Positions 27,492 through 59,284 of a stretch of 64,000 nucleotides of DNA are shown one piece after another. The position numbers were made by a program, and so were the translations under genes. Under the pieces are notes generated by a model. It had not been told where the DNA came from and ran no database searches. It worked only from the letters and a program-made list of their open reading frames with translations. The stretch comes from a bacterium (lineage in GTDB: Bacteria; Myxococcota_A; UBA9160; UBA4427). The stretch's first letter is position 1, and every line of letters begins with the position of its first letter. The stretch spans positions 248,001 to 312,000 of the forward strand of contig JANSYR010000007.1 in the NCBI GenBank assembly GCA_024742285.1. Direction: 5' to 3'.

Positions 27492-28256
27492 ATGGGCCTG
27501 ACCATCGAACGCATTCCGACCTTCGGCGACAACTACACCTATCTGGTGATCTGCGACGAGACGCAGGACGCCGCGATCATCGACGCACCGGAAGAGGATC
27601 CGGTCGTCGAGCGAGTCGCCGCGACCGGGGCGAACGTCAAGCTGATCCTCTCCACGCACCACCACTTCGACCACTCGATGGCGAATCCGCAGCTCGCGGA
27701 GCGCTACGGCGTCCCGGTCTATGGACACGTCTCGGACCAGGAGCAGGATCGCCTGCCCGGCCAGACGATCGGGATCGACGAAGGCGACACGATCCAGCTC
27801 GGCGACCAGACGGGACGCGTCCTCTTCATCCCGTCCCACACGACGGGCCACGTGGCCTACGTGTTCGACGATGCGAAGGCCGTCTTCACCGGCGACATGC
27901 TCTTCGCCGGCGGCTGCGGTCGCCTCTTCGAGGGCAACGCGCAGATGATGTACGACGCGCTCTGCGTGAAGCTCGCCGCCCTGCCCGACGACTACCTCGT
28001 CTACTGCGGTCACGAGTACACCCAGGGAAACCTCGAGTTCGCGCTGACCGTCGAGCCCGAGAACCCCGAGATCAAGGAGCGCCTCGACCGGGTCGTCTCG
28101 CTTCGGGCGAACGCCGCGGCCGACTGGCACGACGCGACCCCGGCGGAGATGACGATCCCGTCGACGATCGCGGAAGAGAAGGCGACGAACCCCTTCATGC
28201 GCGCGTCCGACGCCGAAGAGCTCGGCCGCATCCGCGAGCTAAAAGACAACTTCTAG
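27492..28256 (+). CDS. gloB: Hydroxyacylglutathione hydrolase (glyoxalase II)
   Basis: 254 residues, metallo-beta-lactamase fold. The binuclear metal site STHHHFDH, the later PSHTTGHV (His) and FTGDMLFAGGCGRLFEG, and YCGHEYT are all hallmarks of GloB, as is the C-terminal NPFMRAS. It hydrolyses S-lactoylglutathione in methylglyoxal detoxification. The family length (~255) matches. Followed by a GC-rich hairpin-containing intergenic element and then the thioesterase gene. Confidence 0.92.
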   Translation: MGLTIERIPTFGDNYTYLVICDETQDAAIIDAPEEDPVVERVAATGANVKLILSTHHHFDHSMANPQLAERYGVPVYGHVSDQEQDRLPGQTIGIDEGDTIQLGDQTGRVLFIPSHTTGHVAYVFDDAKAVFTGDMLFAGGCGRLFEGNAQMMYDALCVKLAALPDDYLVYCGHEYTQGNLEFALTVEPENPEIKERLDRVVSLRANAAADWHDATPAEMTIPSTIAEEKATNPFMRASDAEELGRIRELKDNF

Positions 28257-28260
28257 CCAC

Positions 28261-28328
28261 GGGCGCAGACGCGCCCTGGGCACTCTTTTCAGCGGGCGCG
28301 TGCGCGCCCTTGGGCCGCAGGCGCTCGC
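28261..28328. repeat. Intergenic hairpin element with GGGCCGCAGGCGCTCGC tail
   Basis: Immediately after gloB are two hairpins, GGGCGC-AGAC-GCGCCC (28261-28276) and GGGCGC-GTGC-GCGCCC (28294-28309), then the 17-mer GGGCCGCAGGCGCTCGC (28312-28328) that abuts the ATG of the thioesterase gene. The same hairpin-plus-17-mer layout recurs after etfB at 33826-33859. Likely a dispersed intergenic repeat that may also end or attenuate transcription. Confidence 0.6.
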
Positions 28329-28766
28329 ATGATCCCCGAAGACGCGACGACGATCACGATCCGGCATCGGGTCGGTTTCCACGAGACCGATGCGATGGGG
28401 ATCGTGCATCACTCCAACTATTTGAAGTACTGCGAGAACGCGCGGGTCGTCTGGCTCGAGACCCACGACAAGAGCTATCCGGACTGGATCGAGCTGGGTC
28501 TCCACTTCGCGGTCACGAAGGTCGATCTCGACTACAAGCAGCCGGCCCGCTTCGACGACATGCTCGACGTCGCGACCTGGCTCGAGTGGGTCCGCGGCGC
28601 CTCCCTCGCCATGGCCTACGTGATCGCGCGCGACGGCGAGCTCCTGTGCTCGGGACGAACCGAGCACGCATCGATCAACGACGATGGTCGTGTGCGGCGC
28701 CTGCCCAAAGAGGACAGGAAGCGCCTCGGACGCAGCGCGCTCAGCGAGTACCATCGCGGAGACTGA
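28329..28766 (+). CDS. Acyl-CoA thioesterase, YbgC/4HBT family
   Basis: 145 residues with a single hot-dog fold. HRVGFHETDAMGIVHHSNYLKYCENAR carries the Asp of the YbgC/FcbC thioesterase active site (ETDAMG) and the substrate-binding strands follow (VTKVDLDYKQPARFDD). It hydrolyses acyl-CoA esters; YbgC proteins act with the Tol-Pal system in some species, but no tol genes are near. The ATG directly follows the intergenic repeat element, leaving no room for a normal Shine-Dalgarno site. The stop is followed by a tandem array of the same repeat family. Confidence 0.9.
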   Translation: MIPEDATTITIRHRVGFHETDAMGIVHHSNYLKYCENARVVWLETHDKSYPDWIELGLHFAVTKVDLDYKQPARFDDMLDVATWLEWVRGASLAMAYVIARDGELLCSGRTEHASINDDGRVRRLPKEDRKRLGRSALSEYHRGD

Positions 28767-28767
28767 A

Positions 28768-28872
28768 CCGCCGGCTGCGGGCACTCGCCGGGTACCGCCG
28801 GCTGCGAGCGCTCGCCGGGTACCGCCGGCTGCGAGCGCTCGCCGGGAACCGCCGGCTGCGGGCGCTCGCCGG
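28768..28872. repeat. Tandem array of four 27-bp GC-rich hairpin units
   Basis: Units begin at 28768, 28795, 28822 and 28849. Each starts CCGCCGGCTGCG and ends CGCCGGG plus 2 variable bases; units 2 and 3 differ from units 1 and 4 at one or two loop positions. Each unit folds as CCGGC (positions 4-8) with GCCGG (20-24). The array starts two bases after the thioesterase stop. The unit resembles that at 32580. Confidence 0.8.
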
Positions 28873-28881
28873 CGGCCGCGC

Positions 28882-29352
28882 CTAACGCGCGCCGCGGCCG
28901 GCGAGGAAACGGCGCAGGTCGCTCACGCGCAGCGCCAGCTCGCGCTCGAACCAGCCGGTCGTGTTCTGGATGACCTCGAGGGCATCCCCCCGACCGGACC
29001 AATGGGACCGGACGACGTCGGGGTGGACGTGGTTCACGAGGCGGGAGAGGCAGGCGGCGACGATGAAGAGATCGTCGAGGAGGCCGACGGGGCCCATCAC
29101 GAGGGCGGGCAGGACGTCGATCGGCGAGAAGACGTAGGCGAGCCCCGCGACCGCGAGGCCCTTGTCGAGGAGCGGCACGCGCTCGTCGCGCAGGAGTCGC
29201 AGGAGCAGGATCGTGAGATCCGGCAGGAAGAGCAGGACGTCCCCGAAGCCGGAGGCGTTGCCCGCGGTGGGCGGGGCGAGCCGCTCGCGAAGCTGATCGT
29301 AGAGCCGCTGCTCCTTGGGGTTGAGCTCGATCGTGACGGGCGGCCCGCTCAC
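28882..29352 (-). CDS. DUF1232 (YkvA-like) membrane protein
   Basis: 156 residues from a GTG whose GTGA overlaps the stop of the upstream phosphodiesterase gene. The conserved DUF1232 core is KGLAVAGLAYVFSPIDVLPAL and VGLLDDLFIVAACLSRLV: two hydrophobic stretches around SPIDVLP. Its biochemical role is unknown. The longer frame to 29589 lies entirely inside the upstream gene and has no similarity, so I use the overlapping GTG. The C-terminal part (HPDVVRSHWSGRGDALEVIQ) is charged and likely cytoplasmic. Confidence 0.8.
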   Translation of the reverse strand: MSGPPVTIELNPKEQRLYDQLRERLAPPTAGNASGFGDVLLFLPDLTILLLRLLRDERVPLLDKGLAVAGLAYVFSPIDVLPALVMGPVGLLDDLFIVAACLSRLVNHVHPDVVRSHWSGRGDALEVIQNTTGWFERELALRVSDLRRFLAGRGAR

Positions 29353-30950
29353 GGACTCTCCTCCCGCCCGCGCCGCAGCTCCCGGAGTCTCGAGTCCGCA
29401 TCCCGGTCCTGGCCGAGACGCCGGGGCCCGGCCGGCGGCGGCTCGACCGCCGCCCGAAGGATCCCGAGGATCGGCTCCCCGTCGACGTCCTTGCCCAGGC
29501 GAAGCCCGAGCAGCGCGCTGATCGTCGGGGCCACGTCGAGCAGGTCGACGCTCGGCAGGCGGACGTGATTCCGGACGCCGCGGCCCCACGCGACGAAGCC
29601 GACGCTCGTCTGCTCGGTCCCCTCCCCCAGCACGCCCGGAGCGCCGCGGACGCGCGCGGGCGCCAGCAGCGGGCCGGACAGATCGTCGGAGATCACGATC
29701 CCGGGCGGAGACACCAGGGCGAACCAGGCCTGCGGGTCGCCGCCGAGGATCGCCAGCTCCTTGGCCGAGACCAGCTCGAACGCGCCGGTCCGATCCGCCT
29801 CTTCGCGCAGGACGTCTCGTGCATCGAGGGCATTCGCGGCATCCCGCGCATAGACATAGGCTGATCGCCCGTGTGAGCGCGCAAGGGCGAGCCAGCTCCG
29901 TACGCCCGTCGAGGTCCGCGGATCGCGCCCGACGAGCCCCTTTCGCGCGAGCGCCGTATTCGGAGCGACACGCGTGTGGACGGGATGGTGCGCCGCGTCT
30001 CCGGTCACGAAGATCGCGGTGTCTTCGATCTGTCCGTTCGTGGACAGGCAGTCGACGAGTCGCTCGATTTCCGCGTCGACGCGGTCGAAGGCATCGTCCG
30101 CCTCGACCGAGCCCGGGCCGAAGGCGGCGAGGGGCCCGAGGGTCTGGTCGAGCCGCAGGAGCCAGAGTCCCGCGTCCCGCTCCGAAGCGATCAGGCGGCA
30201 GGCCACCTCGACGAGGACGCCGTCTTCCTCGCGCGCCGACGGCCAGGGCACGGCGCGCTCGAGCTCACCGTCCCTCGCCTCCCGGGTCTCGGCGGCGATC
30301 GTCGCGATCTCCCGTGTCAGCGCCGGACTCGTGCCGGGCCGCGCGAACGCCAGCCCCTCGCCCGTCGGCTCCGGCAGGAGCAGCTCGATCCGAGCCCCGG
30401 TGGTCGTGGGCCAACCGAGGGACACCACGCCCCGGGCAACGGCCGCGTCCCAGAGGGTCGTGCCTTGAAGCAGGCGGCTGTCGTGGAAGGGCAGCGATCG
30501 CGTGCCCTCCCCGTCGAGGGTCGCGTCGGCGACGATCCCGTGGCGCGGCGGCGTGCGACCGGTCACGAGGGTCGCATGGGTGGCCCGCGCGGCACTCGGC
30601 GCCGGCGGAATCGCGGCGAGACCGGTGGCGCCCTCGCGCGCCATGCGGGCGAGGGTCGGCATGTGGACGAGGGCACCCTCCGCCGCGGCATGCCCGAAGG
30701 GGTCGAGGTAGTCGGCAGCGCGAAGCCCCGCGACCGTGATCAGGAAGACGCGCTCCGGCGGGCCCTCCGAGAATCGCGCCTCCTGTCGCGGATCGACGTC
30801 GACGAGGGTGCGCTCGCCCTGGAGGGTGGGCGTCGAGCAGGCGAGGGACGCGACTACGCCCAGGAGGCCCAGGAGGCCCAGGAGGCCGGGGAAGCCGAGA
30901 CCGCTCCGCCCGCCTGAAAGAAACACCGTTTTCCCGTCGGCCCGCTCCAC
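29349..30950 (-). CDS. Alkaline-phosphatase-superfamily phosphodiesterase-like lipoprotein
   Basis: 533 residues, type I phosphodiesterase/nucleotide pyrophosphatase-like. Signal peptide with a GLLGLLGLL core (three 9-bp GGCCTCCTG-type repeats at 30861-30887) and lipobox SLACS. The body has HMPTLARMAREGATGL, ATHATLVTGRTPPRHGI, and a late FVTGDAAHHPVH, all recalling the metal-binding strands of the superfamily; the catalytic Thr/Ser segment (ARATHATLVTG) is present in a recognisable form. Substrate unknown. I chose the GTG at 30950, close to the signal peptide; an ATG at 31061 adds 37 residues of atypical composition. Overlaps the DUF1232 gene. Confidence 0.7.
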   Translation of the reverse strand: MERADGKTVFLSGGRSGLGFPGLLGLLGLLGVVASLACSTPTLQGERTLVDVDPRQEARFSEGPPERVFLITVAGLRAADYLDPFGHAAAEGALVHMPTLARMAREGATGLAAIPPAPSAARATHATLVTGRTPPRHGIVADATLDGEGTRSLPFHDSRLLQGTTLWDAAVARGVVSLGWPTTTGARIELLLPEPTGEGLAFARPGTSPALTREIATIAAETREARDGELERAVPWPSAREEDGVLVEVACRLIASERDAGLWLLRLDQTLGPLAAFGPGSVEADDAFDRVDAEIERLVDCLSTNGQIEDTAIFVTGDAAHHPVHTRVAPNTALARKGLVGRDPRTSTGVRSWLALARSHGRSAYVYARDAANALDARDVLREEADRTGAFELVSAKELAILGGDPQAWFALVSPPGIVISDDLSGPLLAPARVRGAPGVLGEGTEQTSVGFVAWGRGVRNHVRLPSVDLLDVAPTISALLGLRLGKDVDGEPILGILRAAVEPPPAGPRRLGQDRDADSRLRELRRGREESP

Positions 30951-31126
30951 GTTCGTCCCACCCCCCGTGCGATCCGCCGGGCGAGGCGTCCGCGTGCGGG
31001 AACGATGCGGGAGGCGATCGTCCCTGTCGAGCCGGAGCGCGGGATTCTTTTTCTCTTTCATAAACGGATACTTGCGGTCATTCAGGGGAGACTCCCGCCC
31101 TCGTTTTGCGTAGCATGGGCCCCGCC

Positions 31127-31840
31127 ATGGAGCCCTCCGCCACCTTCGAAGAACTCGAGATCCCCCTGCCCGAGCCGGTCCACGGCAAGGACCACGTGAA
31201 GGGGGTCCTCGGCATCCCCGAGTGGTGGCCGACCGGCGAGCGGATCGCCGTCGTCTTCGCCCACGGTGGCGGCAGCGACCACGAAGACCCGCTGATCGCC
31301 GCGGTCTGCAACGCGCTCACCGAACGCAGCTATCTGACCCTGCGCTTCAACTTTCCGTTCGCCGAGGCGGGCAAGCGTGCGACCGCCGACTCCCCGGCGG
31401 TACTCGAGCGCGGCTACCGCGCCGCACTGAACATCCTCGGGCGCGATCCGACCGCCCTGCCCGCGCGCCTGATCGTCGGCGGCATGGGCCTCGGCGGCCG
31501 CGTTGCCGCCGGACTGGTCGCCGACCGACTGCAGGCCGATGGTCTCTTCGTCCTCGGCTTCCCGCTCCACCCGCAGGACAAGCCCGAGAAGAGCGACCCC
31601 GAGGTGCTCTTCCGCTCGACGGCCCCGACACTCTTCGTCCAGGGAACGCGCGACCGCCGCTGTGATCCGACGGCGCTCCGCCAGGCGCTCCGCAGGGTCG
31701 GTGCGCCGATCGAGCTCTACGACGTGGCCGAGGCGGACTCGAACTTCCACGTGCCCCGCAAGTCGGGCCGCACGAACGAGCAGGTCCAGGCCGAGGTCTT
31801 CGGCGTGCTCGCGAACTGGATCGGCCGGCGAACCCGCTAG
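31127..31840 (+). CDS. Alpha/beta hydrolase-like protein (KANL3/TEX30 type), nucleophile missing
   Basis: 237 residues. VVFAHGGGSDHEDPLI gives the oxyanion strand, YLTLRFNFPFAEAGKR the family-typical segment, and TLFVQGTRDRRCD the late acid strand. The nucleophile elbow should be GxSxG; here it reads GGMGLGGR, with Gly (GGC codon) where the Ser is expected, so the protein may be catalytically inactive or use another group. A His remains near the C-terminus (NFHVP). In-frame ATGs at 31106 and 31115 are alternatives. It precedes the MBL-fold gene by 39 bp, probably in one operon. Confidence 0.75.
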   Translation: MEPSATFEELEIPLPEPVHGKDHVKGVLGIPEWWPTGERIAVVFAHGGGSDHEDPLIAAVCNALTERSYLTLRFNFPFAEAGKRATADSPAVLERGYRAALNILGRDPTALPARLIVGGMGLGGRVAAGLVADRLQADGLFVLGFPLHPQDKPEKSDPEVLFRSTAPTLFVQGTRDRRCDPTALRQALRRVGAPIELYDVAEADSNFHVPRKSGRTNEQVQAEVFGVLANWIGRRTR

Positions 31841-31879
31841 CAATCCGCGAGAGCGACCCCGAGGAGTCCGAGGAGAACG

Positions 31880-32578
31880 ATGGCCACCGAGAGCGACCTC
31901 TACTTCGTGCAGCAGGCGGTCGGCGAGATGGCCAACCTCGCCTACCTGATCGGAAGCCGCGAGCAGCGCAAGGCCTACGTCGTCGACCCCGCCTGGAACG
32001 TGCAGGGGCTGCTCGATCAGGCCGCCAACGACGGAATCGAGGTCGTCGGCGCACTGGTCACCCACTATCACCAGGATCACGTCGGCGGTGAGATCTTCGG
32101 CCACAACATCGAGGGGCTCGCGAAGCTCCTCGAGGTCGCGCCGATGCCGATCCACGTGAACAAGCACGAGGCCGAGGGCACGATCAAGGTCACGGGCGTC
32201 TCCGAGGGCGATCTCGTCCAGCACGAAGGGGGCGACGTCCTCGAGCTCGGTGGCGTCGGCATCCGGCTGATCCACACCCCCGGCCACACGCCGGGCAGCC
32301 AGTGCTTCCACGTCGAGGAGCGGGACCAGGCCGGTCATCTCGTCTCGGGCGACACGCTCTTCCTGAACGGCTGCGGACGGGTCGATCTACCGGGGGCGGA
32401 TCCGAAGGCGATGTACGAGAGCCTCGAGACGCTGAAGCAGCTCCCGGACTCGACGAACCTCTTCCCGGGCCATCTCTACTCCCCCGAAGGGCACGACTCG
32501 ATGGAGGCGCAGAAACGGACGAACCCGTATCTCCGCGCCGCCAACGTGGAGATGTTCCTTTCGTTCATGGGGTACTAG
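31880..32578 (+). CDS. MBL-fold metallohydrolase (glyoxalase II-like)
   Basis: 232 residues. Metal site VTHYHQDHVGG (HxHxDH), then HTPGHTPGS (His), SGDTLFLNGCGRVD (bridging Asp) and FPGHLY (His). This set matches glyoxalase II-like and persulfide dioxygenase-like enzymes. Unlike gloB at 27492, it lacks the C-terminal glutathione-binding domain of typical GloB, so its thioester substrate is uncertain. GAGGAG about 5 nt upstream of the ATG is a good ribosome site. The stop is followed directly by the 29-bp tandem array. Confidence 0.85.
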   Translation: MATESDLYFVQQAVGEMANLAYLIGSREQRKAYVVDPAWNVQGLLDQAANDGIEVVGALVTHYHQDHVGGEIFGHNIEGLAKLLEVAPMPIHVNKHEAEGTIKVTGVSEGDLVQHEGGDVLELGGVGIRLIHTPGHTPGSQCFHVEERDQAGHLVSGDTLFLNGCGRVDLPGADPKAMYESLETLKQLPDSTNLFPGHLYSPEGHDSMEAQKRTNPYLRAANVEMFLSFMGY

Positions 32579-32579
32579 T

Positions 32580-32704
32580 CCGCCGCCTGCGGGCGCTCGG
32601 CGGGAGGTCCGCCGCCTGCGGGCGCTCGGCGGGAGGTCCGCCGCCTGCGGGCGCTCGGCGGGAGGTCCGCCGCCTGTTTCCGCCGCCTGCGGGCGCTCGG
32701 CGGG
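32580..32704. repeat. Tandem array of 29-bp GC-rich hairpin units
   Basis: Full units start at 32580, 32609 and 32638, a truncated unit at 32667 (11 bp), then another at 32680. Each begins CCGCCGCCTGCGGGCGCTCG. The pairing is positions 4-8 with 20-24, as in the 28768 array, but positions 7 and 21 are C and G here where they are G and C there: a compensatory swap. Confidence 0.8.
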
Positions 32705-33035
32705 GCTGGCGCTTCGACCGGCATCCTGCACCGGGAACGCCCGGTCGACGGGTGCCCGGGAGTCGGTTTTCGTCGTCGAAATGCCGCGGTAGACGCGCTC
32801 TCCCCGGCGAATCCGGGCGCGCGGCCGCAGCCCTCCGCGGCACCTCGCTGCGTTGAAATCCGGCCCCCCGGGCGGTAGAGTCCGCCGCGTTCGATTTCCC
32901 GGCGAGTCATCCCACGCCGGGATTCCCGACAGACCCAATCCCAACTCGCAACGCTTCGCCCAGGTCGCGTCGCGCTCCCCTGTCTCTACGAGAATTCAGG
33001 AGCGGACGGCGCCTGGCCAGAGGAGGCTCGCCCCC
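32705..33035. other. Intergenic region upstream of etfB, 331 bp
   Basis: Follows the repeat array. It likely holds the promoter for etfBA; I see no clear -35/-10 pair. AGAGGAGG just before 33036 is a strong ribosome site. No other coding frame or RNA was recognised. Confidence 0.45.
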
Positions 33036-33821
33036 ATGAAGGTCATGGTGTGCCTGAAGCAGGTTCCCCATCAGGACGCACGTCTCGACGTGAACGCCGA
33101 CGGAACCTGGATCCAGGAAGACAACATCAAGTTCGAAATCAACTCCTACGACACCTACGCCGTCGAGGAGGCCCTCAAGCTGAAGGACGCCGGCTCGGCC
33201 GACGAGGTCATCGTCGTGTCCATCGGTCCCGACCGCGTGACCCAGGCGCTCCGCACGGCCCTCGGCATGGGTGCGGACCGCGCGATCCACGTCAACGACG
33301 ACGCGGCCGCCGGAGCCGACGCACTCGCCACGGCCAAGATCCTCGCGGCCGTCGCCAAGGAAGAAGGTGCGGACCTCGTCTTCGCCGGCCTGATGGCGGA
33401 CGACGACAACGCATCGGCGATCCCTCCGATGGTCGCCGAGCTCCTCGGCTTCCCGAGCGCGACCGGCGTCCTCGCCACCGACTTCAGCGGCGACGCCGTG
33501 AAGGTCGAGCGCGAGCTCGAGGGCGGCGCCCTCGAGGTGGTCGAGCTGCCGAAGCCCTGCCTGATCGCGATCCAGTCCGGTGCCAACCAGGTCCGGTACG
33601 CGTCGCTCAAGGGCATCATGCAGGCGAAGAAGAAGCCGGTCGACGTGAAGAGCCTCGCCGACCTCGGCGTCGCCGATTCGGCCTCGGCCGCGCAGAACAA
33701 GACCAAGATCAACAAGATCTACGTCCCGCCGAAGGGCGACTCCGCCGAGATCCTCTCCGGATCGACGGACGAGGTCGTCGGCCAGCTCGTGACGAAGATC
33801 AAGGAGCTGGGCCTTCTGTAG
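33036..33821 (+). CDS. etfB: Electron transfer flavoprotein beta subunit
   Basis: 261 residues. MKVMVCLKQVPHQDARLDV and INSYDTYAVEEALKLKD are the EtfB N-terminus and nucleotide-binding fold; VVELPKPCLIAIQSGANQVRYASLKGIMQAKKKP is the family signature in the middle. EtfB with EtfA carries electrons from acyl-CoA dehydrogenases to ETF:quinone oxidoreductase. The upstream AGAGGAGG ribosome site decides this start over the longer frame from 32853. etfA follows 125 bp later across a hairpin element. Confidence 0.95.
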   Translation: MKVMVCLKQVPHQDARLDVNADGTWIQEDNIKFEINSYDTYAVEEALKLKDAGSADEVIVVSIGPDRVTQALRTALGMGADRAIHVNDDAAAGADALATAKILAAVAKEEGADLVFAGLMADDDNASAIPPMVAELLGFPSATGVLATDFSGDAVKVERELEGGALEVVELPKPCLIAIQSGANQVRYASLKGIMQAKKKPVDVKSLADLGVADSASAAQNKTKINKIYVPPKGDSAEILSGSTDEVVGQLVTKIKELGLL

Positions 33822-33859
33822 CCGCGGGTGCATGCGCACCCCGGGCCGCGGGCGCTCGC
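33822..33859. repeat. Intergenic hairpin plus 17-mer between etfB and etfA
   Basis: GGGTGC-ATGC-GCACCC (33826-33841) is a perfect 6-bp hairpin, followed one base later by GGGCCGCGGGCGCTCGC (33843-33859), which matches 16 of 17 bases of the element before the thioesterase gene. The hairpin differs from that copy by a paired change (C-G to T-A). It may attenuate etfBA transcription. Confidence 0.6.
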
Positions 33860-43881: not shown

Positions 43882-45156
43882 ATGGCCACAGCGACCGCAC
43901 CCGGTCCGTCCAGCTCGCCCGCGCACGGTGAGAAGCCGAAGCGCGCGATCGTGCTCTCCGGCGGCGGTGCGCGCGGGGCCTACGAGGCCGGCGTCCTCCG
44001 CTTCATCCTCGACGAGCTCCCGCGGCGGACCGGCATCCAGCCCGACTTCGACATCATCTGCGGAACGAGCGTCGGTGCGATCCACGCCTGCTTCCTCGCC
44101 GCGACCGCGGACGAGACGGAGAAGCGGGGCGAGCACCTGGTCGACATCTGGCACCGGATGAAGGTCCACGAGATCTTCGAGTTCACGACCCGGGACTTCT
44201 TCCGCCTCCCGCGGCGGATGCTCGGCGTGAAGCGCGTCGCCCAGCAGCTGCGCGAGGGCCAACGCCCGGATCGCCTCTACGGCCTCCTCGACACGGAGCC
44301 CCTCGAGCGCCTCGTCCTCCAGTCGATCCCCTGGCGCGGGATCCGCCGCAACCTGCGGACCGGCCGGGTCGACACCGTCTGCATCGCCGCGACCCAGATC
44401 GCGACCGGCCGCGCCGTCGTCTTCTGCGACTCGGCGCGCCCCGAGCTCCCGCCCTGGGCCTCCGTCTCGAACATCCGCATGCAGCGCATCCGACTCTCCC
44501 CGCTCCACGCCCTCGCCTCCGCGGCGATTCCGCTGCTCTTCCCCTCCGTTCGCGTCGGGGCGCGCTACTACGCGGACGGCGGGCTGCGTCTGAACACCCC
44601 CCTCGCCCCCGCGGTCCGCCTCGGCGCGGATCGCATCATGGTGATCGGCCTGACCCACCCGACGGAGCCTTCGGTCAACGAGGCGATCGCCCAGGAGCGG
44701 ACGGCCGAGTTCGGCAACCCGATGTACCTCTTCGGCAAGGTGCTGAACGCGCTCATGCTGTCCCCGATCGAGGCGGACGTCGCGCGGATGCACTTCATCA
44801 ACGACATCCTCGACGCGGGGCGCGACGTCTACGGCGACGACTTCCTGGCGCGAATCAACGCGAAGCTCCAGACGGAGGGAGACCGGGACCTCAAGCGGAT
44901 CGACGACCTGGTGATCCGCCCGTCCGAGGACCTCGGCGTGCTGGCGGCAGAGGTCGTGCGGGACGATCCGGATCTCGACTTCGGGCCCTTCCTGGGCCTG
45001 CTCCGACGGGCCAGCGGCGCCGGCACGACCGCCCGCGAAGCCGACCTGCTGTCCTATCTGCTCTTCGACGCCTCCTACGCGCGACGCTGTGAAGAGGTCG
45101 GGTACAAGGACGCGGAAGGCCGGGAAGACGAGCTCGCCGCCTTTTTCGACGCTTAG
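43882..45156 (+). CDS. Patatin-like phospholipase
   Basis: 424 residues. The patatin domain begins with AIVLSGGGARGAYEAGVL (oxyanion GGGARG), the nucleophile GTSVGA (GxSxG) and the dyad Asp in YYADGGLRLNTPL (DGG). It hydrolyses acyl esters of phospholipids or neutral lipids. A C-terminal extension of about 120 residues (DFLARINAKLQTEGDRDLKRIDDLVIRPSEDLGVLA) belongs to the bacterial patatin branch. The last codons (TTCGACGCTTAG) begin the 22-bp repeat at 45145. The N-terminus of ~18 residues is Ala/Pro/Ser rich. Confidence 0.9.
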   Translation: MATATAPGPSSSPAHGEKPKRAIVLSGGGARGAYEAGVLRFILDELPRRTGIQPDFDIICGTSVGAIHACFLAATADETEKRGEHLVDIWHRMKVHEIFEFTTRDFFRLPRRMLGVKRVAQQLREGQRPDRLYGLLDTEPLERLVLQSIPWRGIRRNLRTGRVDTVCIAATQIATGRAVVFCDSARPELPPWASVSNIRMQRIRLSPLHALASAAIPLLFPSVRVGARYYADGGLRLNTPLAPAVRLGADRIMVIGLTHPTEPSVNEAIAQERTAEFGNPMYLFGKVLNALMLSPIEADVARMHFINDILDAGRDVYGDDFLARINAKLQTEGDRDLKRIDDLVIRPSEDLGVLAAEVVRDDPDLDFGPFLGLLRRASGAGTTAREADLLSYLLFDASYARRCEEVGYKDAEGREDELAAFFDA

Positions 45157-45202
45157 CCGCAGCGCCTTCGACGCTCAGCCGCGGCGCTTTCGACGCTTGG
45201 CC
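45145..45202 (+). repeat. 22-bp tandem repeat across a stop codon
   Basis: Units begin at 45145, 45167 and 45189 (the last 14 bp only), each starting TTCGACGCT. The patatin stop is in unit 1 (CTTAG); units 2 and 3 have CTCAG and CTTGG. Confidence 0.75.
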
Positions 45203-45225
45203 GGGGAGCCGGTACTGTCCTCGCC

Positions 45226-47314: not shown

Positions 47315-47378
47315 GGGAGCCCTCAGCGGGCATGGGAGCCCTCAGCGGGCAGAAGAGCCCTCAGCGGGCATGGGAGCC
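47315..47378. repeat. 19-bp tandem repeats before the di-iron gene
   Basis: Three near-perfect units start at 47315, 47334 and 47353, with a partial fourth at 47372. Each reads GAGCCCTCAGCGGGCA at its core. They lie between 15 and 80 bp upstream of the di-iron gene start, in its leader or promoter. Confidence 0.75.
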
Positions 47379-47411: not shown

Positions 47412-48074
47412 TCAGGCCACGAGCCCGCGCCGGATGAACTGGGCGACCTCGCGGCGACGGCGTTCGACCGCCGGGCCGGAGAAGACGGACTCCCCGAGCA
47501 GCGCTTCGCCGAGCTCGCCCGAGGAGAAGTGGAAGGTGATCGCCCCGATCACCGTCAGCAGCGTGTCGGGGATCGAGACCGGCCGAAAGGCACCGGAGGC
47601 GATCCCCGCCTCCAACAGCGCCGCGAAGCGCTCGAGGATTCCGGCGAGCCGCAGCTCGAAGTCCTCGAGGTCGCGATCGAGCCCCTCGGCGGCCTGGAGC
47701 ACGATCGCCGGGAAGGGCTCCTCGTCGACCAGCGCCCGCATCATCAGACGGCCCGCCGGCACGTCCTCCGAGAGCGTGCAGACGACGGCATCGATCCAGG
47801 CCTCGAGCTGCTCCACCGGCGATCCGTCCGTCGCGACGGACAGCAGCGCCCCCTCGATCCGTATCAGCGAGCGGTCGAGGACGGCGCTGTAGAGCTCCTG
47901 CTTGTTCGGGAAGTGGTGGAAGAGCGCCGATTTCGAGAGCCCCACCGTCGTCGCGAGCTCTCGCATGCCCACGCCGGCGTAGCCGCCGATCGCGAACAGG
48001 CCCTCGGCGGTCTCGAGGATCTTGTCGCGGCTGTCCGGGGGCCGGGGGTGGGGGGATTCGTCGCTCGGGATCAT
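47412..48074 (-). CDS. TetR/AcrR family regulator
   Basis: 220 residues. The N-terminal HTH (about 15-65: ILETAEGLFAIGGYAGVGMRELATTVGLSKSALFHHFPNKQELYSAVLD) is the typical TetR DNA-binding domain; the C-terminal helical domain binds an unknown ligand. A perfect 18-bp palindrome sits 15 bp before the start codon, an expected auto-operator. The di-iron gene follows on the same strand and may be its target. The TetR C-terminal domain has no recognisable signature. Confidence 0.9.
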   Translation of the reverse strand: MIPSDESPHPRPPDSRDKILETAEGLFAIGGYAGVGMRELATTVGLSKSALFHHFPNKQELYSAVLDRSLIRIEGALLSVATDGSPVEQLEAWIDAVVCTLSEDVPAGRLMMRALVDEEPFPAIVLQAAEGLDRDLEDFELRLAGILERFAALLEAGIASGAFRPVSIPDTLLTVIGAITFHFSSGELGEALLGESVFSGPAVERRRREVAQFIRRGLVA

Positions 48075-48510: not shown

Positions 48511-50565
48511 TTGCCGCCCCTTCCGCGACGCGCCACCGCCCCGAGTCGACCGACCCCCCTGCGTGTCGGAGTCCTGCTCGCCGTGGGGCTCGCGGCGCTG
48601 GTCGGCGCCTCGGGCGCCCCCGCCCAGGTGCTCCTCGACGAGGCCGATGGGCGGCCGGTCTTCCCGGTCGGCGATCTCGAGCTCGTGTATCCGACCGCCC
48701 ACACGGACCACCCCGCGATCGAGGGTCTGCTCCCGATCGAGGTCGCCCTGCGCGAGACCGCCAACGGGTTCACGGCCGCGCGTCCCGACGCGCCGACGAT
48801 CCCCCACGTCTTCCGCGCGAGCGGGACCGAACCGATCGACCTCGACGCGGAAGGCCTCGTCGCCGTCCTGACCGCCGTCGTGAAACGGCTCCACGCCGCC
48901 GGCTACTACGGCGTCGACGTCCGCCCGGCCGCCCGCGACTTCGACCTCGTCGAAGCGCGCGACCTGCGAACCGGAGGACGAACCGCCCTCGGCCTCGAGA
49001 TCCGGATCGGACGCGTCGGGCAGGTCCGCACCATCGCCGCCGGCGACCGCGTGAAGAGCGACTGGAAGATCGACAACGAAATCCACGAACGGATCCGCCT
49101 CGCCTCCCCGCTCCAGCCGGCCAGCGTCGGGGACGAAGCCGCGACGGACCTGCTCGATCGACACGCCCTCGAGGACTATCTCCATCGCTTGAACCGCCAC
49201 TCGGGCCGACGGGTCGAAGCGGCGCTGTCCCCCGGCGAAGAGCCCGGCGAGGTCATCCTCGACTACCGCATCCTCGAGACGAAGCCCTGGTTCGTCTACG
49301 GCCAGGGCAGCAATACGGGAACCAGCCGAACGAACCTCTGGCAGCAGCGGTACGGCTTCAGCCATCGTCAGCTCACGGATCGCGACGACGTCCTCTCGTT
49401 CGAGTACCTGAACACGGGCCTCGACGACGTGAACGCCGTCGCCGCGCGCTACCAGGCTCCCTTCTTCGGTTCGGATCGCCCGGACTGGATGAACCACCGG
49501 CGCGGTGACCCCGAGTGGCTCGAGTGGATCCCGCGCGACGACATCCCGTGGTGGGGCGTCGATCGGCTGCGTTGGGAGGCGGAGTTCAGCTGGAGCCTGT
49601 CGGAAGTCGGTTCCGCCGCCACCTTCCTCAATCTGGCCAACGACATCGTGCGCAGCGAGAGCTTTCTCTACGGCGGGCGCTTCGTCTACGAGGTGTACCA
49701 GCACCGGAACTTCTTCGTCGACGTCTGGGGCGGACTCCGACTGCAGGACCTCGACGTCGACAACAAGAGCCCCGCCTCCCCGACCCGCGGACAGGCGCTT
49801 CTCGTCGTTCCCCGGGTCGGTGTCCACGCGGAGCGGATCAACGAGCTCTCCGCGTTCTCCGCCGACCTCGACATCTCGGGCCAGACGAACGAGATCGACC
49901 CATCGAACCGGACCGCCCTGGGCCGAACGGACGTCGTCGACCGCTATGCCCAGCTCGGATTCAGCGTGAACTGGTCCGGCTACCTCGAACCGATCGTGAA
50001 CCCCGATGCCTGGCGCGACCCGGCGACGCACACGAGCTCCACCCTCGCCCACGAGCTGGCTCTCAGCTTCCGCTCCCAGTACACCTTCGACGACGCACGG
50101 GTGATCCCGCAGGCGAACGCCACCCTCGGCGGTCTGTACAGCGTGCGCGGCTACCCTCAGTCGGTGGCGGTCGGCGACGATCTCTACGTCGGATCGGTCG
50201 AGTACCGCTTCCACGTTCCGCGGGCGCTGCCGATCCGCCGGAAGCCGCTCACGATGCCGCTGCTCGGCGACTTCCGCGCCTCGCCCCAGCAGGTCTACGG
50301 TCGCCCGGACTGGGACTTCGTCTTTCGCGCTTTCTTCGACGTCGGTCGGACCGAGCGGAACGAGTCGAGCCTCCAACCCGGCGAGCGGGACCAGACCCTG
50401 ATGAGCGCGGGCATCGGTGCCGAGCTCCAGATCCTCTCGAACGTGCGCGCGCGCGTCGACTGGGCCGTCGCACTCGAAGACGAGCTCGGCGTGGGCGGCA
50501 ACGGACGCGAAGTCGTCAACAGCGGAGACAGCGAGATCCATGCGTTGTTCAGCATCGTCTACTGA
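48511..50565 (+). CDS. TpsB outer-membrane transporter (ShlB/FhaC family)
   Basis: 684 residues from a TTG. Signal peptide (LRVGVLLAVGLAALVGASGAPA), periplasmic POTRA-like regions (about 40-250; AVVKRLHAAGYYGVDVRPAA), and a 16-strand barrel. GGLYSVRGYPQSVAVGDD is the VRGY/F motif of the L6 loop that gates TpsB pores. It translocates the TpsA partner across the outer membrane. The last residues (HALFSIVY) have a terminal aromatic residue, as in outer membrane barrels. tpsA starts 26 bp inside its end or 76 bp after it. Confidence 0.9.
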   Translation: MPPLPRRATAPSRPTPLRVGVLLAVGLAALVGASGAPAQVLLDEADGRPVFPVGDLELVYPTAHTDHPAIEGLLPIEVALRETANGFTAARPDAPTIPHVFRASGTEPIDLDAEGLVAVLTAVVKRLHAAGYYGVDVRPAARDFDLVEARDLRTGGRTALGLEIRIGRVGQVRTIAAGDRVKSDWKIDNEIHERIRLASPLQPASVGDEAATDLLDRHALEDYLHRLNRHSGRRVEAALSPGEEPGEVILDYRILETKPWFVYGQGSNTGTSRTNLWQQRYGFSHRQLTDRDDVLSFEYLNTGLDDVNAVAARYQAPFFGSDRPDWMNHRRGDPEWLEWIPRDDIPWWGVDRLRWEAEFSWSLSEVGSAATFLNLANDIVRSESFLYGGRFVYEVYQHRNFFVDVWGGLRLQDLDVDNKSPASPTRGQALLVVPRVGVHAERINELSAFSADLDISGQTNEIDPSNRTALGRTDVVDRYAQLGFSVNWSGYLEPIVNPDAWRDPATHTSSTLAHELALSFRSQYTFDDARVIPQANATLGGLYSVRGYPQSVAVGDDLYVGSVEYRFHVPRALPIRRKPLTMPLLGDFRASPQQVYGRPDWDFVFRAFFDVGRTERNESSLQPGERDQTLMSAGIGAELQILSNVRARVDWAVALEDELGVGGNGREVVNSGDSEIHALFSIVY

Positions 50566-53500
50566 CGCTGGGCGGCGCGAAGGCCGCCCCCGGGACGCCC
50601 GCGCGCGCACGCGAGGCAAGCGATCCGCGTTCGAGCGCGCCGTGGCGCGGCTGCTCGTCGCGGCGATCGTGTCGCTCACGCCCGCGACCGGCTTCGCCGG
50701 TGAGGAGTTCCAGTCCGCGGACCAGGCGGTGATGCTCACGCCGGGCGAGATCGACAACTCCCAGCGAGGGCTCACGGTCATCCACTCGGCCGAGCAGGAG
50801 GGCGTGACGGACTGGCGGGGCGGCTTCGACCAGCCCGTCGACAACACGCTGATCTTCTCGCTGACCGCCGAGGGCGCGCAGCACCTGAACCTGATCGGCG
50901 GCGATCAGATCGCGATGATCCACGGCCAGGTCCGCTCCGGCGCCGACGACACGATCATCTTCGCCGCCCCCAACGGCATCTACATCGGCACGACCGCCAT
51001 CATCGACGTCGGCAACCTCGTGGCCGTCGGAGCCGACCTGACGGACATCGATTCGATCGGCGGGCGGGATCTCGAGCTGACCGGGCGCGTCGTCGCAGCG
51101 CCGGGCAGCGTGATCGCGGCCGAAGAGAACGTGCTCCTCTACGGCACCGACGTCCTGCTGGCCGGCGAGATCTTCACGCCGGGCGGACGCCTCCTCGCGG
51201 TCGGTGCCGACTCGATCCACTTCCTCGACGCCGACACGATCACGGAGGGCTTGACCAACCCGATGGACCTGATCGCCCTCACGGGCAACGGCGGCGTCCA
51301 GAACCTCGGGGAGCTGACCGCGGAGACGGCGGCGCTGATCGGCCGGCGCGTCGTGAACACCGGGCACATCGAGATCGAAGACGGCACGCTCATGATGCTC
51401 GGCGGCGAGGCCGTCCGGCTCGTCGAGTTCGACAATCCGGTCGTGGTCGAGATCCCCCGCGCGAACGGACCCGACAACCACGTCGAGGCCCCCGAGTACG
51501 CCGTGGAGAACCGCGGCACGATCGACGCCGGTCGCGGGCGCGTGCGTCTGGCCGCCGCGGATCCCCTCGGCTGGGGCATCCGACAGATCGCCGAGGCCGG
51601 CGGCGACACGCCGTCGATCCGTGCCGGCACCATCGAGATCGCCGGGGGCGAGAACGGCCGGGTCGAGATCGCGGGCGTGCTCGACGCGAGCGACCGGTCG
51701 GACGATGGCCTCGGCGGCACGATCGACGTGACCGGCGAGACGATCGTGCTGGCGGGAGACGTCCGGGCCGACGACGGAACGATCATCGCCGAGGGCGCGA
51801 CCCTCGACGCGTCCGGTGGCGCGGGCGGCGGCTCGATCCGCGTGGGTGGCGACGAGCTGGGCAAGGGCGAGCTGCAGCGCGCCCGGGGCCTCGTCGTCGC
51901 CGAGGGCGCCGAGGTCCGCGCCGACGCGATCACGAATGGCGACGGCGGGCGGGTCATCCTCTTCGCCGAGTCCCTGACCCACATCGCCGGCGCGGTCTCG
52001 GCGCGCGGCGGGGCCGAGGGCGGCGACGGCGGCTTCGTCGAGACCTCGGGCCTCGAGCGGCTCTCCCTCGAAACGACCCCGGACCTCTCCGCACCGGAGG
52101 GCGAAGGCGGGCACTGGCTGATCGACCCCTTCTCGATCCGGCTCGTCGACGAAGACAATGATCTCGACTGCGGCTTCGGCCAACCGGCTTGTCTGAACCG
52201 GGCCGTCGAAGCGATCCTCGACCCGAATTTCGACAGCGCGGGCTTCGATGACGTGCTGCGGGCCATCGACTTCGAAGTGGGCGGCACGGACCCCAACACG
52301 GTCGACGTCGCGCTGATCGTCCGCGCGCTCTCGGTCGGCACCGACGTCACGCTCTCGACCGAAGCCTTCGATCCGCGGGTCGAGAGCAGGGACGAGATCG
52401 CCGACGGCGCCGGCAACATCGACGTCGAAGCCGACATCCTGATCCCCGATGGTGCCGCCGCGCCGGGAACCCGCGCCACGCTGACCCTTCTCGCCGCCGG
52501 CGACATCAACATCGACGCGAACATCCTCGTCGGAGACGGCGACACCACCGTCACGCCTAACATGTCCCTCGGCCTGGTGTTCAATGCAAACGACCAGGCC
52601 CAGCGCGACCCGAACGAAGACTTCGACCGGGACCAGGTCAACGGCGACGTGAACATCCGCGCCGACATGCGGACCGGCGGCGGCGGCTTCGTCGCCCGCG
52701 GCATCAGCGTGCGCCAGGACGCCGGATTCACCCTCGAGACCGACGGGGGCTCCGTGTTCCTGCAGTCCGGATCGATCGATCGGTTCGGCAACGTCGGCGA
52801 GTTCGAGGCGTCCTCCCGCTCGGAATTCGATCCCACGACGGCCGGAATCTCGACGGGCATCGACATCGACGGAACGATCGACACCGCACGCCCGGACGAC
52901 GACGCCCTCGAAGGGGGAGCCATCACCCTCGAGGCCGCGAGCGTGAACGTCCGCCGCCGACTCAGCCCGACCGAGATCTTCATCGAGGCCGGCGAGCTCG
53001 ACGTCTCGGGCACGCTCCGATCCGGCGGCGGCGCGATGTCCCTGCGCGCCGGCGTGAGTGGAACGACGAGCGTCGGCAACGCGCGCTTCGATGGCGCGAC
53101 CCTCGACGCCCGCTTCACGAATCCCGCGGTCGACTCGGACGGCGGTCCCATCTCGATCGTCGCGAACCGCCTCGACCCGGAGGACCGCCAACTCCGTTCG
53201 GTCGACGTCGTCGACGACATGTCGCCGGACGCCCAGGGCGGCGTCATCGCGATGAGCGGCGCGAACGACGTCCGGACCGAAGGCGGACTGCTCACGATCG
53301 GCAGCGCGACCACGCGAAGCGTCAGCCTGGAAGGCACGTTCGACACGACCGGCGGCGACGACGGTGAGAACGGCCTCCTCGCGGTCTTCGCCGGAGACCG
53401 CAGCGGAATCGACACCGACGACGATCTCTACGGGAACGGAGAGATCACGATCGGCGGAAGCACGCCGACCACGCTCGCCGCCGCCGGCATCACGCTGCGC

Positions 53501-56500
53501 GCACGAGACGTCGTCACCAGCACGAACGCGGGCGCCGCCGCAGTCCAGATCCTCGCGAGTGGCGAGAGCCTCCAGTCGCTCCCCTTCGCGATCGTCGGCG
53601 CGCAGGACGACGTCAACGACGGGGACGACGCCTTCGTCACTTCGGGCACGCTCCAGATCGACGCGGAGCGGCAGGCGTCCTTCGCCCGAAACACGCTGCT
53701 GGCCGCCGAGACCTTCGATCTGAACGTCGCGATCGACCCGACTGCGCTGACCCTGGAAGAACAGGGGACCATGCCCCCCACTGGCTTCGACCCGGACGTC
53801 CGCCTCGTCTTCGACGGATCCGGCGGCGCGAACGCGGCCGGGGGTGTCCGCATCCAGGCGGACTCGGTCTCGATCGAGACCGCGCCGGTCCTGGCGGTCA
53901 CCTCGGATCTCGCCGACCCGGTCGACGACCGCGAGACGGAGCTCGCTCGAGAGGCCGGCGCGAACTACGAAGGCTTGCAGCTACGCGACTTCTCCGGCGC
54001 GCTCCGTCCCGAAGCGGTCACGATCACGCAGGCGGAAGCGTTCGCGGTGACGAGCGCGGCCGCGACCGGGGACAACGAGATCTTCTTCGGCGGTCGGTCC
54101 GGTGGCGCGGGCGCCGGAGGCGTCTTCGACACGGCGCAGATCGGCGCCGACGGCCAGCGGATCACGCTGACGAGCGAGTCCGGAACGCTCACGATCGAGG
54201 ATGCCGCCGGCCTGAACGACGACGCGGGGCGAACGCCCGGCGCGGACGCCGGCGCCAGCTGGGTCACGCTGAACGGCGGGCTCCTGCTCGACTCCCAGCT
54301 CCCGGCCCCGGCGGTCGACTTCTCGTCGATCGTGAACCCCTTCGACGTGGCCAGCCTCGCGGTCACGTCCCCGCGCAGCTTCACGATCGACACGAGCGTG
54401 ACCGGCGCGATCCTGGACGCCGACGAACTCTCCTTCACGGCGGGACGCCAGACGGGCATCGAGCAATCCGGCTTCGACGTCGGCCAGCTCGGCGGGACCC
54501 TCGAGGTCCAGGCCGGGCTGACCCTCGCGGCGACGGACGTCCTGTCGCTCCACGCGGGGGCGACCGGCTTCGGCGATCTCGAATTCGATTCGACCGGCGC
54601 GCCGATCCGGCTGCAGGCGAACTCGATCGCACTCCGAGCGGGGGCCGGCGGCGAGACCGAGGGAAGCGAGGCCGAGGGCCGCTCGGCCATCGTCGGCCTC
54701 GCGGCGACGGCCGCGACGCCGATCGAGCTCCGCGACGGGGCCGGCGGTGCGTTCGTCGCCGACGGGACCGAGAAGTCCTTCTCGTTCCGACAAGACGCGG
54801 CGATCGATGCGGCGACCCATCTCCCCACGATCGACCAGTTCGGAATCACGATCGGCAACGGCTTCGGACTCGACGACGAGCGCGTCGACTATGCGCTCCA
54901 GTCCGATTTCGGCGCAATCGACCTGTCGACCGGCGGTTTCGATGCCTCGCAGTTCCGGGACGTCGACATCACGCTGATCGGCCGCGAGACCGGGAGCGGC
55001 GACGCGATCCAGCTGCCGGCGGGATTCGTCTTCGACGGGCGCCACGTGACCCTCGGCGGCGCCACCCGCTTCCTGTACACGACGGAGCTCGCCGACGCCT
55101 TCGCGCCGGCGGGAACCGACGCCGACGGCAAAGAGCTCACCCTTCGCGCCGGCTCCCAGGGCGTCGGAAGCCTGACCTTCCAGAGCGGCGTCGTCGTCCG
55201 GGCCCCGCACATCCGACTGGTCTCCGGCGACGGCTCCAGCGGCAGTACGGGCTCCCGGGTCTCGGTCAGCGGCGCGACCTTCGACCTGACGGACGATCCG
55301 GCCGCCGGTTCGGGTCGAAGCTTCGTGTTCCAGGAAGACCAGACCTTCTCGGAAAGCGACCTCCCGGACCGCGACCAGTTCGTCGAATCAGGCGGCGCGC
55401 CGGTCCTGCCGTCGATCCTCGTGATCCGCAACGACGCCGGCGCGATCGACTGGCGCAACCCCGACTTCACCGACCTGCCCCTCGATCTGGATTCGGGTGC
55501 CGGGCGGCTCGTCCTCGAAGCGGAGGTGATCACGCTCCGCGCGACCCTCTCGGACAGCGACCTGGTGCTCACGTCGGATACCGGCGCCCTCGCGAATCTT
55601 CGCCTCCGCCTGCGCGCGAACGATCTCGACCTGATCGCCACCGGGAACGAGGACGCGGGCTTCGGACGACTCCTCGCGGGCGAGCGAGCCGGCGATACGA
55701 CCGGTGCGATCCCCGCCGGCGGCGACGACACCTTCGACGACGAACGCCTGCTGATCGAAGCCTTCCAGGCGGACGCCGACGCGACGACCCGGAACCTGAG
55801 CGACCTCGCTGCCACGGAAGCCGACCCCGACGTCTTCGACCTCGCGATCGGACGCGGCCCCGAGAGCATCCTCGTCGACGTGGACGGTCAGATCACCGGC
55901 GACGAGCTCTTCGAGAGCTTCAACGTCGGCGGTCACCTCGGCCGTGGACCGACCGACGATGCCTTCGGCGACGACGACCCGACCGACCTCTTCCTCTTCA
56001 CGAGCTTCGACAGCGACGACGACGACCCGCTGGACCCGACGTTCGCCGCGATCACCTTCGGCGCCAACAACGTCACGGGGAGCAACCTCTTCATCGGCAA
56101 CGAGTTCACCCCGATCGAAGACGAAGTCTTCCTCGAAACAGGCGCGTACGAGTTCGGCAGCGTCTCGATCTTCACCGAGGGGAGCATCGTCCTCCGGCCC
56201 GATACGGACATCGATGCCGAGTCCATCGTGCTCGAGGCCGGCTTCCTCGAACAACAGCCCTTCGACGAGATCAACGACGAGAACCCGATGGGTGATCTGA
56301 TCTTCGAGACCTCGGGAGCGGCCGCCTCGGAGCTGACCGCCCGACGGATCGCCCTTCGCGCCGGCAATCTGCGAGACGGCCCGCCCTTCCGTGTCACGAA
56401 CCGGGACTTCGATGGGGACGGCGAACGGGATCCGCTGGTCGACGAGACCCCCGCCGACGACTTCCGGGCCGAGATCGACTTCAGCGGGCTCGAGTCCATC

Positions 56501-59170: not shown

Positions 59171-59284
59171 GCCTCGACGGAATCGGGCCGTCCGATCGTG
59201 GGACGCTCGGCCCCAACCGGATCGGGCCGTCCGGTCGTGGGACGCTCGGCCCCAACGGGATCGGTTCGTTGGAGCGTCGGACGC
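59162..59284 (+). repeat. 39-bp tandem repeat across the tpsA stop codon
   Basis: Units start at 59162, 59201 and 59240, each beginning GGACGCT and sharing GATCGGGCCGTCCG-type sequence; a fragment follows at 59279. Unit 1 includes the TAG of tpsA; units 2 and 3 have TCG there. 39 bp is 13 codons, so reading through would stay in frame. Confidence 0.8.

Follow-up and report, generated by a model that had tools for sequence, protein, structure and literature searches.

A 64,000-nucleotide (nt) stretch of DNA from a bacterium of the GTDB lineage Myxococcota_A; UBA9160; UBA4427 (assembly GCA_024742285.1, contig JANSYR010000007.1, positions 248,001 to 312,000; here called the window) carries four intergenic loci with GC-rich hairpin repeats, and copies of these repeats recur at gene ends elsewhere in the genome. 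The main form, type 1, is a unit with a 5- to 6-bp stem of variable sequence enclosing a conserved 11-nt loop, TGCGGGCGCTC, and one to five such units follow one another head-to-tail in an array. Among 75 arrays in the genome, 71 directly follow, on the sense strand, the stop codon of a long open reading frame (ORF) with high GC3 (G+C content at third codon positions), and in 41 of those 71 the loop starts exactly 9 nt past the stop. Our preferred reading, held tentatively, is that these are a family of short structured repeats resembling repetitive extragenic palindromic (REP) elements, anchored to gene 3' ends and kept as post-stop RNA hairpins in which the core is a recognition site.

Type 1 arrays and their distance from the stop codon

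Two of the four loci are type 1 arrays, both of which were recovered by Tandem Repeats Finder (TRF) with 94% and 100% matches. Genes were called as supported ORFs by our own GC3-based heuristic rather than taken from an annotation. The type 1 features, read from the sequence and numbered within the window, are as follows.

28763..28766, plus strand: C and stop codon TGA of a thioesterase-like gene (28329-28766; 4HBT domain), the anchor of array A; the loop of the first unit begins 9 nt past this stop.
28768-28872 (feature row from 28767), plus strand: array A, four 27-bp units with stem CCGGC/GCCGG and loop TGCGRGCRCTC; also found by TRF.
32575..32578, plus strand: C and stop codon TAG of an MBL-fold gene (31880-32578), the anchor of array B.
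32580-32704 (feature row from 32579), plus strand: array B, four 29-bp-type units and one truncated unit (about 32667-32677), with stem CCGCC/GGCGG and loop TGCGGGCGCTC; also found by TRF.

The MBL-fold gene is hydroxyacylglutathione-hydrolase-like in NCBIfam, at a score below the cut-off. The original prediction had grouped these two arrays with hairpin elements at 28261-28328 and 33822-33859 as one family with compensatory base changes, and its observations were correct to the base. All coordinates and unit lengths were right. In each array, positions 4-8 of the unit pair with 20-24, and pair 7-21 is G-C in array A and C-G in array B. Its interpretation was partly supported. The loci do belong to an intergenic, structured family with paired changes genome-wide, but they comprise two element types with only the core in common. 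The paired changes had been taken to argue for selection on structure; the structure is indeed maintained, but pairing does not identify the maintaining agent, and paired changes fit both host selection on an RNA and recognition by a mobilizing enzyme. The loci had also been placed next to stop or start codons: all four follow a stop, but only 28261-28328 adjoins a start codon. This adjacency had been noted without the fixed distance to a C-plus-stop codon, which is the most striking feature of the family. The window alone is thin evidence, because the 7-21 swap reflects a single event per array, propagated through homogenized units. The bare 11-mer core, with one mismatch allowed, was not enriched across the window (26 found versus 23.5 expected).

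A covariance-model search, which had been proposed as a check, turned up further copies with paired changes throughout the genome (6.55 Mb in 56 contigs, 95% complete). The model, built from 28 units, gave 129 matches there at E≤10, of which 128 fell into the 75 same-strand clusters that we call arrays, and the loop TGCGGGCGCTC occurred 137 times, compared with 53 for its reversed control. At E≤0.001 among 60 genomes, matches numbered 79 in the genome itself (G000), 86 in G003, and 12 in G004, with one weak match in G058 (L067; L numbers denote individual loci). At E≤1e-4 across 79 genomes of the order, only G000, G003, and G004, all of one genus, gave matches, and six further congeners showed weak matches only at a laxer threshold (best E 0.002). 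A pattern scan of wider genome contigs returned at least 119 stretches; the metagenome-assembled genome Co_bin.94 (JAUIMK01) was the sole multi-match record set among the matches listed, and the one-per-contig matches in other records, not each checked, were taken as chance in GC-rich DNA. Rfam gave no match above the gathering score in the window and only tRNA at nine element-bearing loci.

Four arrays of the 75 lacked a supported stop. Two of them (L215 and L018) are probably false model matches. A third, L014, lies at a contig end and has a 34-bp unit identical to that of the array ending contig 36, and the two are probably one array divided by assembly. In the fourth, L063, a truncated unit sits 9 nt past a TGA.

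The distance to the stop was closely constrained. Apart from the 41 arrays with the loop at 9 nt, 7 had it at 5 nt and the remainder at 8 to 21 nt. The stem accordingly lay 0 to 15 nt past the stop (loop at 5 to 20 nt) in 67 of 71, with a modal class of 4 nt, and the loop was at 21 nt in the other 4. By comparison, 4.5% of random positions had such a stop within 30 nt. The 9-nt distance was also seen in 18 of 21 arrays in G003 and 4 of 8 in G004. The stops ahead of the arrays were TAG (36), TGA (28), and TAA (7). A C preceded the stop in 63 of 71 array ends, including all 41 at 9 nt, versus 88 of 144 array-free ends (Fisher p 1.7e-5), and GAC was the last codon in 19 of 71 versus 6 of 144 (Fisher p 3.5e-6). 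Aligned, the 41 sequences give the profile G-N-C / T-R-R / N-C-C-K-Y-C-G-S-C / TGCGGGCGCTC / G-S-C-G-R-G, which fades past about +29. In some arrays with the loop at 5 nt (L251, L231, and L238), the usual place was taken by an out-of-frame CTRR, with the in-frame stop inside the 5' part of the element.

The loop and the stop position, rather than the stem, were used to choose units for the pairing analysis, since the input to an initial count of 28 units had been filtered by stem. In 72 units (71 from model-match clusters picked by loop and stop position, and one by its loop alone), standard pairs filled 335 of 360 stem cells. Shuffles averaged 300.1 with a maximum of 316, and none of 2000 reached the observed count; slid stem registers paired in only 131 of 288, 164 of 360, and 128 of 360 cells. 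All five pairs were present in 56 of 72 units, using seven different stems. Selection by the exact loop only, which covered 130 of its 137 copies, gave five pairs in 80 of 112 array copies and four in 20 more, compared with five pairs in 2 of 18 copies elsewhere. The model had missed one of these two, which sits 9 nt past a TAG and has a new paired stem, TTGCC/GGCAA.

Orthologous gene ends in sister species

Orthologues in G003 and G004, most with 82-96% identity, hold arrays at the same place, with different spacers and copy numbers. Many of these array-bearing orthologues also differ in the stop codon (for example, TAG/TGA/TAA). Array A has orthologous arrays in G003 (L105) and G004 (L066); the counterpart of array B is an array in G003 (L105/L271) but only one degenerate unit in G004 (L272). 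Among the loci examined, an orthologue with an array in the genome itself existed for 8 of the 21 arrays in G003 and 4 of the 8 in G004. Stems changed in pairs between such sites: the DUF1302 gene has GTCGCC/GGCGAC in the genome itself and GTCGGC/GCCGAC in G004, C13:212109 has CCCGC/GCGGG and its G003 orthologue CCGGC/GCCGG, and the orthologous stems at C27:5209 are TTCGCC/GGCGAA and CCGGC/GCCGG. Broken stems also occur, as at C4:9129 in the genome itself (CCGCC with GCCGG).

Ten gene ends, picked because an array-bearing orthologue was already known, were traced in eight congeners, 3 of the 69 traced ends being cut by contig ends. G003 carries an array at 9 of 10 of these ends and G004 at 7 of 9. 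The remaining six congeners had 47 readable ends, 45 of them empty; the two that were flagged, in G007 and G008 (16 and 35 nt; up to two mismatches), look like chance. Several empty orthologous ends already have a C before the stop. At rpsI, the array is preceded by the stop and followed by a distinct palindrome that is conserved in G000, G003, and G004; in the array-free congener G001, a T-tract hairpin follows closely on the stop. Because a separate conserved hairpin lies downstream, the arrays are, at least at rpsI, insertions into the 3' untranslated region (UTR) and not the terminator.

Type 2 elements: a palindrome followed by the core

The other two loci in the window are of a second type, made of a palindrome, T or TT, and then the tail GGGCCGCRGGCGCTC. 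The core is thus a tail behind the palindrome, whereas it is the loop in type 1. Three units were found in the window.

28261..28289, plus strand: type 2 unit 1, palindrome GGGCGC-AGAC-GCGCCC with a shortened tail, behind the TAG (28254-28256) of a gloB-like gene with a HAGH_C domain.
28294..28328, plus strand: type 2 unit 2 (L207), palindrome GGGCGC-GTGC-GCGCCC (28294-28309), TT, and tail GGGCCGCAGGCGCTCGC, abutting the ATG at 28329.
33822..33859, plus strand: type 2 unit, palindrome GGGTGC-ATGC-GCACCC (33826-33841), a single C (33842), and tail GGGCCGCGGGCGCTCGC (33843-33859), behind the etfB stop TAG (33819-33821; ETF domain).

As had been predicted, the stems at 28294-28309 and 33826-33841 differ by a paired change (GGGCGC/GCGCCC versus GGGTGC/GCACCC), and the 17-mers 3' of them agree at 16 of 17 positions. 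The exact type 2 15-mer had 7 copies in the genome, 5 of them within 55 nt past a supported stop, versus 1 for the reversed control. Type 2 is sparser than type 1 but taxonomically wider. It lies behind etfB in four species (G000, G003, G004, and the array-free G005), with variable loops and another paired stem change (GGGTGC/GCACCC in G000 and G005, GGCTGC/GCAGCC in G003 and G004). An AAA-ATPase gene has the element past its stop in G000, G003, and G008, and a shared C-terminus suggests that the three genes are orthologous. In other genera, type 2 occurs behind tRNA genes (G012, G022, and G025) and protein stops (G010 and G025). Indeed, at L361, L353, and L357 (in G025, G022, and G012, respectively), a palindrome with GGGCCGCRGGCGCTY lies directly 3' of tRNA-Ser and tRNA-Val genes, between tRNA genes and in the sense orientation. 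The core was not abundant in a G012 sample of 256,696 bases, in which noncoding DNA held 2 exact and 6 one-mismatch copies and the reversed control 6 one-mismatch copies; a pair of tRNA genes encloses both exact copies. Short tandem arrays of the type 2 core without the palindrome, mostly 18-21 bp, occur in other genera of the family, at L354/L381 (G011), L376, L378, and L363 (G010). The core YGCRGGCGCTC is common to both types, for which we infer a single origin.

Other tandem repeats in the window also lie at gene ends. A 22-bp repeat at 45145-45203 runs over the stop (TAG, 45154-45156) of the gene at 43882-45156, and its unit contains GCCGCAGCGCC, which is near the type 2 core. A 39-bp repeat at 59156-59284 runs over the end of a very long ORF (50417-59170, stop TAG at 59168-59170); with GGAC..GGCCC / GGGCC..GTCC in its unit, it is a possible gene-end hairpin array of different letters. 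At 47315-47378, a 19-bp repeat (sense ATGCCCGCTGAGGGCTCCC) starts about 34 nt past the stop of the minus-strand gene at 47412-48074.

Relation to known repeats and competing explanations

The nearest known kind of repeat is the REP element, and the present family is REP-like, yet it does not pass the tests that define the REP classes. It does consist of multicopy extragenic short hairpins (75 arrays, 5- to 6-bp stems). GTAG REPs are short extragenic hairpins with stems of 5-13 bp and loops of 2-20 nt, found mostly behind coding regions and patchily across species, and their terminal TAG often doubles as the stop of the ORF next to it (PMC3733652). Type 1 differs from that account in its 5' flank of C plus a stop (TAG, TGA, or TAA), its conserved 11-nt loop and free stem, its head-to-tail arrays, and its carriers without a Y1 transposase. 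GTAG stood at the stem foot in just 4 of 71 first units, and an antisense copy lay within 300 nt of 1 of 71 arrays, the units being head-to-tail rather than in opposite-orientation dimers. The Y1 transposase domain (PF01797) expected of REP-associated tyrosine transposases (RAYTs) was absent from G000, G003, and G004, which are 76-95% complete, and was found in one of nine genomes of the genus, all of them drafts: G001, which lacks arrays. CGTC REPs are likewise hairpin repeats without a dedicated transposase; they have a CGTC tag, 8- to 9-bp stems, and 4- to 5-nt loops, mainly in opposite-orientation dimers (PMC3733652), whereas type 1 is untagged and tandem, with a 5- to 6-bp stem and an 11-nt loop.

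Escherichia coli REPs no more than 15 nt from the stop, about 11% of REPs, are reported to stall ribosomes and reduce translation (PMC12306157). Type 1 likewise places a hairpin within 15 nt of the stop, in or near the footprint of the terminating ribosome. It differs in that nearly all arrays are this close, with one modal distance. The present family carries to an extreme two REP tendencies, stop proximity and association with the stop codon. The TAACTGA direct repeats of Beggiatoaceae are also lineage-specific intergenic sets and were suggested to be post-transcriptional signals, but as described they are heptamers and not stop-anchored hairpins with a conserved loop (PMC4679880). A literature search, with most subscription papers outside its reach, found no description of the present family.

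In the reading that we tentatively favor, the type 1 element, whose 5' end lies directly behind a C and a stop codon on the sense strand, would have spread by copying onto gene ends that already ended in C plus a stop, and tandem expansion and homogenization would have followed, as the empty sites and the variation among arrays suggest. Transcripts probably include the copies at the start of the 3' UTR; at rpsI, a separate hairpin comes after them. RNA folded about 4 nt past the stop could delay the final ribosome, as reported for E. coli REPs within 15 nt of a stop (PMC12306157), or protect against 3' exonucleases, and the conserved core would serve as the recognition part. In favor of this reading are the sense-strand position at a preferred distance past the stop, stem pairing above that of shuffles, the switched but paired stems at orthologous sites of both types, the better preservation of units near the stop, the inability of a CTRR target alone to account for the position, and the E. 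coli precedent. A bolder and rather unlikely extension is that the core GCYGCRGGCGCTY marks gene ends specifically in this lineage, where a dedicated factor binding RNA or DNA would recognize it. Palindrome plus core, in few copies behind protein and tRNA genes, would then be the family-wide form, and one subclade would have moved the core into the loop and spread it to some 70 stops at a set distance, giving a control layer coupled to the stop codon, with compensatory evolution at orthologous sites.

A close rival, possible though on the whole doubtful, is that the family is purely a selfish REP-like element: a single-stranded DNA hairpin would be recognized by a mobilizing enzyme with a CT(RR) target, the needs of that enzyme would preserve loop and pairing, and the location at gene ends would reflect insertion preference and purging elsewhere. 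The C found before every stop at 9 nt, which pre-exists at several empty orthologous sites, speaks for it, as do the tandem arrays and their patchy presence across sister species. The invariant C and T at the junction resemble the CT dinucleotides at which RAYTs cut, and some RAYTs tolerate no change at certain REP loop positions (PMC8266576). Yet the three carriers have no Y1 transposase, the only Y1-bearing congener lacks arrays, and many sites are shared by descent. A CTRR target is by itself insufficient to explain the stop position, because noncoding CTRR tetramers in the window outnumber C-plus-stop ends about nine to one (244 versus 28), yet nearly all copies are at stops.

Transcription termination, by intrinsic hairpins without a T tract or by a sequence-specific 3'-end signal, is improbable. 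It would suit elements that follow genes, tRNA genes among them in the case of type 2, and hairpin clusters have been proposed as terminators (PMC8355165). Only 5 of the 71 arrays had TTTT within 14 nt of the stem in their first unit, however, and only 1 in its last, and a separate conserved palindrome follows the rpsI array in three species, the array-free congener having the T-tract hairpin alone. There was also no excess of arrays between convergent genes (33 of 69 array ends versus 61 of 142 array-free ends). Ordinary tandem-repeat drift, in which stem symmetry arises by mutation without selection or recognition, is more doubtful still. Quasipalindrome correction and template switching can yield paired changes, and arrays are homogeneous inside and vary in number and spacer, but drift leaves unexplained the invariant loop, the fixed distance from C plus stop, the sense-strand rule, and the recurrence of both in G003. 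A stop-codon recoding element (readthrough, or a hairpin like the selenocysteine insertion sequence [SECIS]) is scarcely credible. A hairpin directly behind UGA resembles a bacterial SECIS, and the modal 9-nt distance is in frame. In-frame readthrough was nevertheless rejected, as all three stops are used, units spaced, for example, 26, 28, 29, or 34 nt apart do not preserve the frame, and the loop variants are non-synonymous, judged by eye, in the 9-nt frame.

Several observations weigh against a role as post-stop RNA hairpins. The array-free state of six congeners argues against an essential role, and presence differs even between sister species, one of the ten traced genes being empty in G003 and two in G004. 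The array-bearing genes are of unrelated function; the 20 scanned include rpsO and genes for exonuclease III, a RelA/SpoT domain protein, glutamate-cysteine ligase, and dehydrogenases. A role in translation cannot span both types, because type 2 also follows tRNA genes, which have no stop codon, and once (L356, in G021) comes after a poly-T hairpin terminator. The better preservation of units nearest the stop than of later ones (47 versus 81 units; loop mismatches, p=7e-5; stems, p=0.002) supports such a role, but it comes from a test that is mildly biased, because arrays were detected through their best units. Single units show no folding advantage over dinucleotide shuffles (z 0.91, 0.00, and -0.05), and folding energy alone would therefore have missed the family, which is revealed by its recurrence across the genome and its pairing.

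REP-like repeats are common, and the family bears on the long-standing question of whether their gene-end location reflects function or tolerance. Function and selfish spread can be tested against each other directly here, because the position is exact to the base, pairing persists in a freely varying stem around an unchanging loop, and the sister species provide filled, empty, and rewritten ends.

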